Assembly (NCBI GenBank): GCA_003021745.1 | Contig: PXQY01000048.1 | Span: 1-37,814, forward strand | Reading direction: 5' to 3' | From: Halobacteriales archaeon QH_7_69_31 | Lineage (GTDB): Archaea; Halobacteriota; Halobacteria; Halobacteriales; Haloarculaceae | DNA length: 37,814 nt | Shown: positions 2,594-26,053 of the stretch, piece after piece | How the letters are laid out: every line of letters begins with the position of its first letter | Numbering within the stretch: position 1 is the first letter of the stretch | The notes under the pieces: model-generated | The model's database searches: none | Told to the model about the DNA's origin: nothing | The model's input: the letters and a program-made list of their open reading frames with translations, nothing else | Position numbers and translations under genes: made by a program

Positions 2594-2601
2594 TGTATAA
2601 C
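2594..2601 (+). promoter_or_regulatory. TATA-like box before structured repeat copy 1
   Basis: TGTATAAC is centred about 25 bases before the conserved first bases (AGCATCCG) of repeat copy 1. Copy 2 has an equivalent box at nearly the same spacing, which supports both as promoters of the elements. Confidence 0.5.
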
Positions 2602-2622
2602 TCGATTGGTTAACATAACTCC

Positions 2623-2768
2623 AGCATCCGCTGAGGGGGCTTCGAAGAAGCCCCCCGAGGCGGTTCCCGGACGATGGCGCCGAAGTCGTCCGGGTCCGGT
2701 AGCGCGCGGGGGCTTAAGGCGAGCCGTAGGCTCGCCGAACGGAGCACGTGCTATTTTTCCCCACGTTT
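2623..2768 (+). ncRNA. Putative structured non-coding RNA, tandem copy 1
   Basis: This is a 146-base element, close to identical in long blocks with 2913-3060. The plus strand folds into several helices. First, CCGCT/GGCGG encloses GGGGGCTTC-GAA-GAAGCCCCC. Second is a hairpin CCCGGACGA/TCGTCCGGG. Third, TAGCGCG (2700-2706) pairs with CGTGCTA (2747-2753) around GGCGAGCC-GTA-GGCTCGCC. TTTTTCCCC follows directly, like an archaeal terminator. Relative to copy 2, the differences in the first and third helices swap G-C with G-U, which keeps pairing only when the plus strand is the RNA. No known RNA family is recognised, and transcription is inferred. Confidence 0.5.
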
Positions 2769-2835
2769 ATGCCGCGGGCGGCGGGCAGCGCCCCCGCCGG
2801 GTGTCGTTGCGGCTCCGCCGCCACGCGTGAGCGGT

Positions 2836-2859
2836 GTTCGCCGCCGGACGGCGGCGAAC
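2836..2859 (+). repeat. GC-rich hairpin in the spacer between the two RNA-like repeats
   Basis: GTTCGCCGCC and GGCGGCGAAC form a perfect 10-bp stem with a 4-base loop. A different perfect GC hairpin occupies the matching place after copy 2. The spacer 2769-2880 holds no convincing gene. Confidence 0.6.
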
Positions 2860-2880
2860 CCGCGGAGCTTGCAAAAAGTG

Positions 2881-2888
2881 GTTTATAG
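2881..2888 (+). promoter_or_regulatory. TATA-like box before structured repeat copy 2
   Basis: GTTTATAG lies about 28 bases before AGCATCCG of copy 2, within TGCAAAAAGTGGTTTATAG. A near-copy of that string, TGCAATAAGTGGGTCTTATAG, occurs at 3101-3121 where the thiolase stop codon lies. Confidence 0.5.
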
Positions 2889-2912
2889 AAACCGATTCGA
2901 TAACGGGAGTCT

Positions 2913-3060
2913 AGCATCCGCCGAAGGGGGCTTCGCAGAAGCCCCCCGAGGTGGTTCCCCGGACGAGGGCGCCGCAGGCGCCCGAGTCCGGTAGCGCGCG
3001 CGGACTGGAGGCGAGCCGTAGGCTCGCCGAAAGGAGCACGCGCTATTTTTCCCCACGTTT
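2913..3060 (+). ncRNA. Putative structured non-coding RNA, tandem copy 2
   Basis: This 148-base sister of 2623-2768 has the same order of helices. CCGCC/GGTGG encloses GGGGGCTTC-GCA-GAAGCCCCC, where only the loop base differs from copy 1. The second hairpin is longer: CCGGAC/GTCCGG, then a tandem GA/GA internal loop, then GGGCGCC/GGCGCCC with loop GCA. TAGCGCG (2992-2998) pairs perfectly with CGCGCTA (3039-3045) around the invariant GGCGAGCC-GTA-GGCTCGCC hairpin, and a T5CCCC run follows. Minus-strand ORFs across both copies repeat a peptide like NVGKNS-CS-RRAYGSP, which I regard as a by-product of the repeat. Confidence 0.5.
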
Positions 3061-3072
3061 TTGCCCGACCGA

Positions 3073-3093
3073 GCGCGGCGCACCGCGCCGCGC
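3073..3093 (+). repeat. GC-rich hairpin after RNA-like repeat copy 2
   Basis: GCGCGGCGC and GCGCCGCGC form a perfect 9-bp stem with a 3-base loop. It stands between copy 2 and the 3' end of the thiolase frame, and could act as a terminator for either side. Confidence 0.5.
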
Positions 3094-3116
3094 GAGGGAG
3101 GTGCAATAAGTGGGTC

Positions 3117-4167
3117 TTATAGCCGCTCGATGATCGTCGCGATGCCCTGGCCGAAGCCGATGCACATCGTGCTGAGGCCGTAGCGGCCGTCGCACTCCTC
3201 GAGCTGGTAGGGCAGCTTCCCGACGAGCGCCGAGCCGGTGGCGCCCAGCGGGTGGCCGTGGGCGATGGCGCCGCCCCAGACGTTGGTCCGCTCCCGGTCG
3301 GCGCCGGTCTCCTCGAGCCATGCTGCGACGACCGAGGCGAAGGCCTCGTTGACCTCGAACCGGTCGACGTCCTCGACCGTCATGTCGTTCTGATCGAGAA
3401 TCTCCTCCGTCGCCGGGATCGGGCCCTTGAGCATCGTGACGGGGTCGACGCCGACAACGTGGGTGTCGACGATCCGTGCCATCGGGTCCCAGCCGTGTCT
3501 CTCGGCCGCCGCCTCGCTGGCGACGAGCAGTCCGCCGGCGCCGTCGACGATGCCGGAGGAGTTGCCGGCGTGGTGGAAGCCCTCGCCCGGCGCGCGGAAC
3601 GACAGCGGGAGATCCGACAGCGTCTCCACGTCGGTGCTCGGGCGCGGGTGTTCGTCCTCCTCGACGCGGACGTCCTGGCCCTCGACTTCGGTGTCGACGG
3701 GCACGACCTGGTCGTCGTACTTGCCGGCCTGGGCGGCCTCGCCCCACCGCGTCTGGGACTCGGCGGCGAGTTCGTCGAGGTACTCACGGGAGAAGCCGTA
3801 CTCCTCGGCGATGCGCTCGGCGCCCTCGCCCTGCGTGGTCAGCTCCTCGAAGTGCTCGAAGTAGGTGTCGGTGACGCTCTGGCCGTCCGACCCCATCGGG
3901 ACGCGGGTCATGTGCTCGACGCCGCCGGCGATGATCCCCCCAGCCGGCGACCATCGGCGCGAGCCGGGCGATGTTCAGTCCCTGTTCGTCGACGGGCGTC
4001 ACGCAGCCGTAGACGACGTCCTCGACGGTCTCGGGGTCGAAGCCGTTCCGCTCCCGCAGCGCCGTGAGTGGTTCGGCGGCGAGGTCCTGCGGGTGCGTGT
4101 CGCTGAACGAGCCGTCCCGCTTCCCGAACGGCGTCCTGACGGCGTCGACGATGACTGGCGTGCTCAT
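3117..4167 (-). pseudogene. Acetyl-CoA C-acyltransferase (thiolase), active-site segment deleted
   Basis: Thiolases cleave 3-ketoacyl-CoA, or condense acetyl-CoA, through an N-terminal nucleophilic cysteine. The N-terminal frame runs from MSTPVIVDAVRTPFGKRDG to GLNIARLAPMVAGWG. At a run of six G (minus strand, 3936-3941) the sense jumps to another frame, continuing IIAGGVEHMTRVPMGSDG to the normal end CIGFGQGIATIIERL. In homologues about 35-40 residues lie between these parts, including the CGS nucleophile block. NEAFA, the HGHPLGATG histidine and the C-terminal CIG cysteine remain. The two parts together are about 40 residues short of the usual ~390. As written, the gene cannot make an active thiolase; a true deletion or an assembly error are the alternatives. 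An internal ATG at 3911 could yield only the C-terminal part. Confidence 0.88.
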
Positions 4168-25627: not shown

Positions 25628-25660
25628 CGCAAGCCTATGCATAGAAAGCTGGCCTCGGCA
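25628..25660. repeat. Repeat R4 at the right edge of the accessory region
   Basis: Almost identical to R3 (three mismatches in 33 bases), and continuing as CTCA like R1 and R2. It lies 27 bases from the 3' end of the small broken gene at 25688. Confidence 0.7.
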
Positions 25661-25687
25661 CTCATAGGGCTCGTCACCGCCGGGTTG

Positions 25688-26053
25688 TCACGCCGACTCG
25701 GAGCACGCGCTCATCATTGGCCGGCCGAGAGTAGCGAGCGCAGTCTGTTCAACCTTCCCACCGACGAAAAGAACGTCGTCGTCGAAGGCGAACCGGGCCT
25801 CGTCGTCACCGAAGTTCACGAACAGGTCACCGTCAGTCATCTCGGCGAAGACGTCGTCGCTGTCCTGGATGGCGTCCTGGAGGAGCTCCCCGACGGACTG
25901 GCCGGTCTCGGCGGCCTCCTCGAGCAGGTCCACGGCGACGTCCGGGGCCGACGAGGGCTACTCGATGGCTTGCTGGAGCAGGTCCCCGAGGGTTTGGCCG
26001 GTGTCTTCCAGTTCCGCCTGGAGGTCCTCGAACAGCGCCTGGGCGTCTGTCAT
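25688..26053 (-). pseudogene. Small acidic protein with internal duplication, interrupted by an amber codon
   Basis: In one continuous frame the minus strand reads MTDAQALFEDLQAELEDTGQTLGDLLQQAIE, TAG, then PSSAPDVAVDLLEEAAETGQSVGELLQDAIQDSDDVFAEMTDGDLFVNFGDDEARFAFDDDVLFVGGKVEQ. The halves are related (ETGQ-LG-LLQ-AI), so the uninterrupted protein would be two similar helical motifs plus an acidic beta segment. The stop at 25958-25960 interrupts it. The C-terminus (ALATLGRPMMSACSESA) may be altered by the nearby repeat R4. The family is not known. A 31-residue product or re-initiation at an internal codon cannot be excluded. Confidence 0.6.

Follow-up and report, generated by a model that had tools for sequence, protein, structure and literature searches.

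A tandem pair of repeats in Halobacteriales archaeon QH_7_69_31 belongs to a large and apparently undescribed family of structured RNAs of salt-loving archaea. Members of the family share a plus-strand fold, a T5C sequence at its end, a composite closing module and a position pinned to a convergent stop codon. The pair lies in a 37,814 nt stretch of contig PXQY01000048.1, referred to here as the window.

The tandem pair and its relatives

A repeat search of the window detected two direct repeats with 85 % identity over 123 nt and a spacing of 292 nt (Table 1), in agreement with the first-pass annotation, which had described two copies sharing the same helices. The substitutions listed there are present in the sequence (CCGCT/GGCGG in copy 1 against CCGCC/GGTGG in copy 2, CGTGCTA against CGCGCTA, and a GAA against a GCA loop). 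The extent given for the pair, 2594–3060, was too short, as copy 2 reaches 3113 and a further hairpin region follows T5CCCC in each copy. That annotation also did not include hairpin 4, the large number of copies, their pinning to stop codons or their association with thermosome genes.

Table 1. Positions of the tandem elements and flanking genes in the window
Feature	Positions	Strand	Basis or remark
5' neighbour, birA-type gene (biotin ligase)	1567–2499	−	ORF; function judged by eye; divergent from element
TATA-like box of copy 1, TGTATAAC	2594–2601	+	Sequence; not conserved family-wide
Copy 1, overall	2623–2881	+	Opened by AGCATCCG at 2623
Copy 1 structured core, AGCATCCG...T5CCCC	2623–2762	+	Covariance model R1 match 2623–2773, E 2.1e-28; T5CCCC from 2754
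Copy 1 hairpin 1	2628–2663	+	Outer arms CCGC 2628–2631, GCGG 2660–2663
Copy 1 hairpin 1, inner part GGGGGCTTC-GAA-GAAGCCCCC	2635–2655	+	Fold and alignment
Copy 1 hairpin 2	2667–2699	+	Fold and alignment
Copy 1 closing helix TAGCGCG...CGTGCTA	2700–2753	+	Encloses hairpin 3 (2718–2736, loop GTA)
Copy 1 T5C terminator (putative)	2754–2759	+	Sequence
Copy 1 terminator module (putative), ACGTTTATGCC-long variable hairpin region-GCAAAAAGTGG	2763–2881	none	
Copy 1 end motif, GCAAAAAGTGG	2871–2881		
TATA-like box of copy 2, TTTATAGA	2882–2889	+	Sequence; immediately 3' of copy 1 end motif
Copy 2, overall	2913–3113	+	Opened by AGCATCCG at 2913
Copy 2 structured core, AGCATCCG...T5CCCC	2913–3054	+	Covariance model R1 match 2913–3065, E 3.0e-34; T5CCCC from 3046
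Copy 2 hairpin 2, CCGGAC-GA-GGGCGCC-GCA-GGCGCCC-GA-GTCCGG	2959–2991	+	GA/GA internal loop, GCA loop
Copy 2 closing helix TAGCGCG/CGCGCTA	2992–3045	+	Encloses hairpin 3 (3010–3028, loop GTA)
Copy 2 T5C terminator (putative)	3046–3051	+	Sequence
Copy 2 terminator module (putative), ACGTTTTTGCC-hairpin 4-GTGCAATAAGTGG	3055–3113	none	Inverted repeat I2
Copy 2 end motif, GCAATAAGTGG	3103–3113		
Thiolase stop codon	3117–3119	−	3 nt beyond the end of copy 2
Convergent thiolase gene	3117–3911	−	ORF as listed; Pfam Thiolase_C/Thiolase_N

DNA searches placed the element at six positions in the source genome and gave matches in 18 of 60 relatives. Of 20 Natronomonas genomes, 17 were matched by a covariance model built from 33 copies; the source genome gave 24 matches and one complete genome (G002) 80–82, many of them weak or partial; weaker matches were obtained in 110 of 148 genomes of the taxonomic family. 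The 3' motif is present in named records of Haloarcula, Halorientalis, Halorarius, Halorussus and Halobacterium, and a few exact matches of the 3' pattern also occur in unrelated bacteria. No family of Rfam 15 reached its gathering threshold on the element, the best weak match scoring 18 bits where 36 were required, and C/D or H/ACA box motifs and a K-turn were not seen by eye. A literature search of limited coverage found no description of this RNA family. Elsewhere in the window, Rfam matched the C/D box RNA sR-tMet at 25651–25722 on the minus strand (68 bits, cut-off 50).

Fold and strand of the core

In an alignment of 93 copies, 97.7 % of the consensus-helix cells are paired, and 287 cells carry changes on both sides, compared with 71 in shuffles and 6–33 in slid controls. 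Fitting of the alignment to the structure works in favour of both the pairing and the double-change figures. Hairpin sequences differ greatly between copies, and in some copies hairpin 1 is wholly replaced by a different, still pairing sequence. The homologues keep the consensus helices by compensatory change, and the earlier claim of a conserved plus-strand fold and not a protein is borne out. The unpaired segments GGUUC and AGCAUCC are also conserved in the core. In both window copies the arrangement AUCCG-hairpin-CGGUUC looks like an inside-out version of a tRNA T-arm, with GGUUC and AUCC flanking a CCG/CGG stem on opposite sides; this likeness may be due to chance.

Folding energy gives no evidence of strand, because the minus strands of the window copies also beat dinucleotide shuffles (z −3.0 and −4.6, compared with −3.6 and −6.5 for the plus strands). 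The terminal loops of hairpins 1–3 are of the type G-N-A or G-N-N-A in 119 cases and of the complementary type in six, whereas those of hairpin 4 are balanced (25 GNA/GNNA, 17 complement), and a GA/GA internal loop is found in hairpin 2 of 63 copies. By these features the core is a plus-strand fold and hairpin 4 is strand-symmetric. Both RNA and single-stranded DNA form stable GNA-type loops and GA motifs; alone, they therefore fix the strand and not the molecule.

Strand had originally been assigned from G-U pairs. This argument holds for hairpin 1, the only place with a clear excess of G-U over A-C (about 15 to 4), and is weak overall, with about 25 to 20 in the consensus pairs of the 93 homologues once two doubtful pairs are set aside. 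Naive G-U against A-C counts, which were noisy and included spurious helices, were discarded in favour of consensus pairs and loop types. Loop type and the GA/GA internal loop are stronger strand evidence than G-U pairs.

Gene ends, closing module and upstream sequences

Among 140 elements, the end motif falls within 0–7 nt of a convergent stop codon 116 times, counting convergent open frames of at least 80 codons, while random positions in the same loci and the 5' boundary of the element do so in 2.8 % and 2.9 % (3 of 103) of cases, respectively. This pinning is seen at orthologous and unrelated genes alike. On the 5' side, neighbour orientation is evenly divided (43 : 43, half being co-directional) and distances are scattered; some loci carry back-to-back pairs of elements, one facing each flank. 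That the far end is nearly always near a convergent stop codon suggests a small ncRNA joined to a shared signal for ending transcription.

The 110 neighbour genes fall into 75 clusters, with Pfam assignments to core metabolism, translation and replication, and include ribosomal protein S19e, COX3, glutamine synthetase and the small subunit of DNA polymerase. A fatty-acid/CoA regulon, suggested by thiolase, acyl-CoA dehydrogenase and ETF neighbours, was rejected on account of this diversity. At one locus (L232, 1475–2554, minus strand) the neighbour encodes a beta-CASP type protein (Beta-Casp, RMMBL); aCPSF1, a termination factor of archaea, is of this type. Thiolase orthologues without the element mostly carry a T4-5 tract at about +17 to +30, and the others no clear tract. 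A close relative (G013) has only a copy-1-like 3' end behind the thiolase stop codon, a state that deletion between the repeats would also produce.

A plus-strand terminator had been proposed for each copy, and the core does end in a haloarchaeal-type T5C: T4-5C follows the closing helix in most aligned Natronomonas copies and in the other genera listed. The T stretch and subsequent C lie downstream of the putative transcribed unit, the sequence pattern of a T5C terminator; when assayed in Haloferax volcanii, T5C stopped 95 % of transcripts (PMC7237163). At three loci (L012, L076 and L011) an additional block GTTTCAC-hairpin-GTTCAAC, or similar, separates the closing helix from the T tract.

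The element is closed by the strand-symmetric hairpin 4, T5GC-hairpin-GCA5GTGG. GTGYAAAAAGTGG occurs 53 times in one genome, against 0 for the reversed pattern. The composite module TTTCCCCAMGTTTTTGC-N12-42-GCAAAAAGTGG was detected in 42 of 394 genomes of the class, representing 13 of 86 genera, and the reversed composite pattern had no match among the class genomes listed. In two genomes of another family, tandem modules without the RNA core are positioned directly behind sequence that by eye resembles a tRNA 3' end, which suggests that the module is itself a gene-end signal. These loci (L339, 670–930; L340, 593–1090) combine tandem modules, in 85 nt steps in L339, with repeated pieces resembling tRNA 3' ends, an arrangement reminiscent of integration or duplication events that recurred at the end of a tRNA gene.

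Of 30 module loci examined across the class, about half are found behind a thermosome gene (C-terminus GGMGGMM), mostly with 2 nt between module and stop codon, and this association extends over several genera and families; automatic frame choice misplaced a few thermosome loci. A stop codon lies within 0–7 nt at 21 of the 28 class-wide loci that could be tested, whereas only 2.7 % of random positions are that close.

Conservation begins abruptly at AGCATCCG. The TATA-like box reported in the first-pass annotation is present upstream of both window copies and fails as a rule for the family: an AT-rich box at −36 to −24 was found in 21 of 91 copies, compared with two and six in control windows, and a TATA promoter at a fixed distance was not found as a general feature upstream of these Natronomonas copies. 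Presence of the AT-rich box is independent of the orientation of the upstream gene. Five copies of one genome, G016 (L050, L051, L053, L054 and L026), carry AAACTGAAACGA about 25–35 nt upstream of AGCATCC, which was not noticed in copies from other genomes. Haloarcula-type thermosome loci share a conserved upstream block around GAAAATATAGAACCGCGGTGATTGTC, with one change in L308 and L311 and a divergent sequence in L305, and CGAAAGAAA is located upstream in the Halobacterium-type and three of the four Halorientalis-type thermosome loci. We read both blocks as putative promoters of the plus-strand RNA, being promoter-like by sequence. The thermosome gene's own promoter contains TATATAGAA in most loci examined, and resembles the Haloarcula element promoter, not the Halobacterium one.

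Function and origin of the elements

We consider it slightly better than an even chance (a probability of about 0.55) that the element is a convergent structured ncRNA gene fused to the bidirectional terminator of the adjacent gene. We infer that the RNA is transcribed as such and that the module terminates transcription both ways. Each copy would be a small ncRNA gene facing the end of its neighbour head-on. The plus-strand RNA would start near AGCAUCCG, form three hairpins and terminate at T(4-5)C; next would come the strand-symmetric module CCCCA(A/C)GT5GC-hairpin-GCA5GTGG, set directly against the end of the convergent gene and giving that gene a T5 tract too, so that one bidirectional terminator could serve both transcription units. 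The use of the element would be in ending and insulating the transcription of (often housekeeping) genes, and the RNA core may be a by-product, a binding platform or a local regulator. With half of the 5' neighbours co-directional and no conserved Natronomonas promoter, some copies could instead be the 3' tails of upstream genes.

Against this reading, a terminator does not obviously need placement within 7 nt of a stop codon. The distance to the stop codon is the sole constrained genomic distance, and would suit a 3'-UTR element of the convergent gene, whose mRNA would read through into a hairpin that protects or regulates it from behind the stop codon. Hairpin 4 would be able to form in such an mRNA, and the T5G tract need not stop every transcript. 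We nevertheless think it rather unlikely that the element acts in this way, as the loops of hairpins 1–3 and the GA/GA motifs fit the opposite strand only, and both the T5C terminator and the promoter-like blocks at thermosome loci point the other way. A family of trans-acting small RNAs with one function and many gene copies, for which gene ends are safe sites only, would be consistent with the conserved unpaired segments and the putative terminator of its own; such a family is very improbable given the large differences in hairpin sequence between copies, and it leaves the pinning unexplained.

Copy number within the genus is patchy, ranging from 0 to 82 per genome, and many thiolase orthologues lack the element, as might be expected of a MITE-, REP- or SINE-like element, non-autonomous but mobile, whose insertions behind genes serve no cellular role. 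However, near-identical copies are absent (the best pair among 37 in G002 is 92 % identical), orthologous, paralogous and unrelated copies are all about 74–77 % identical, and several copies are kept at orthologous genes, those at thermosome genes across families. No terminal inverted repeats were noticed and there is no fixed flanking target, the upstream columns being unconserved and the 3' flank fixed solely by its distance to the stop codon. Counts of Y1 transposases (PF01797) do not correlate with copy number, with 36 copies in a genome that has none and no copies in a genome with five. The lack of near-identical copies, the equal divergence and the Y1 counts would be better fitted by an old spread followed by maintenance than by an active transposon, and we regard a mobile element without cellular role as unlikely.

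Bacterial REP/BIME elements are palindromic, are present in many copies and often lie behind genes. The haloarchaeal element shares these three properties, but is about 200 nt long, has a single orientation relative to the gene and a covarying multi-hairpin core, and is not correlated in number with Y1 transposases. Palindrome-associated transposable elements (PATE) and IS200/IS605 MITEs of haloarchaea are likewise short noncoding elements with hairpins; unlike these, the present family has no fixed flanking target or near-identical copies and is pinned to stop codons. Rfam families are comparable in being structured RNAs, though none reaches threshold here. The T5C terminators of Haloferax volcanii (PMC7237163) also have T5 and then C at the presumed RNA 3' end and a T tract behind genes, but the present elements differ in having a fixed composite module with a palindromic hairpin, apparently bidirectional by sequence, which is fused to a structured convergent RNA and placed 0–7 nt from the stop codon; 3' UTR medians reported for Haloferax are 58–97 nt.

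We tentatively speculate that a self-contained unit of structured RNA and bidirectional terminator has been added only a few bases from the 3' ends of dozens of unrelated genes to form a gene-boundary system, in which the RNA would help to end or control the convergent gene. The spacing could then stem from some mechanism of addition or from selection, and the ancestral target was perhaps the thermosome gene. The elements would constitute a new and widespread archaeal ncRNA family. We know of no other case of their arrangement, in which a structured RNA gene is joined to a convergent terminator and pinned to a stop codon. The way in which convergent transcription is terminated in haloarchaea would become directly testable, as would a control of housekeeping and chaperonin genes by such RNAs.
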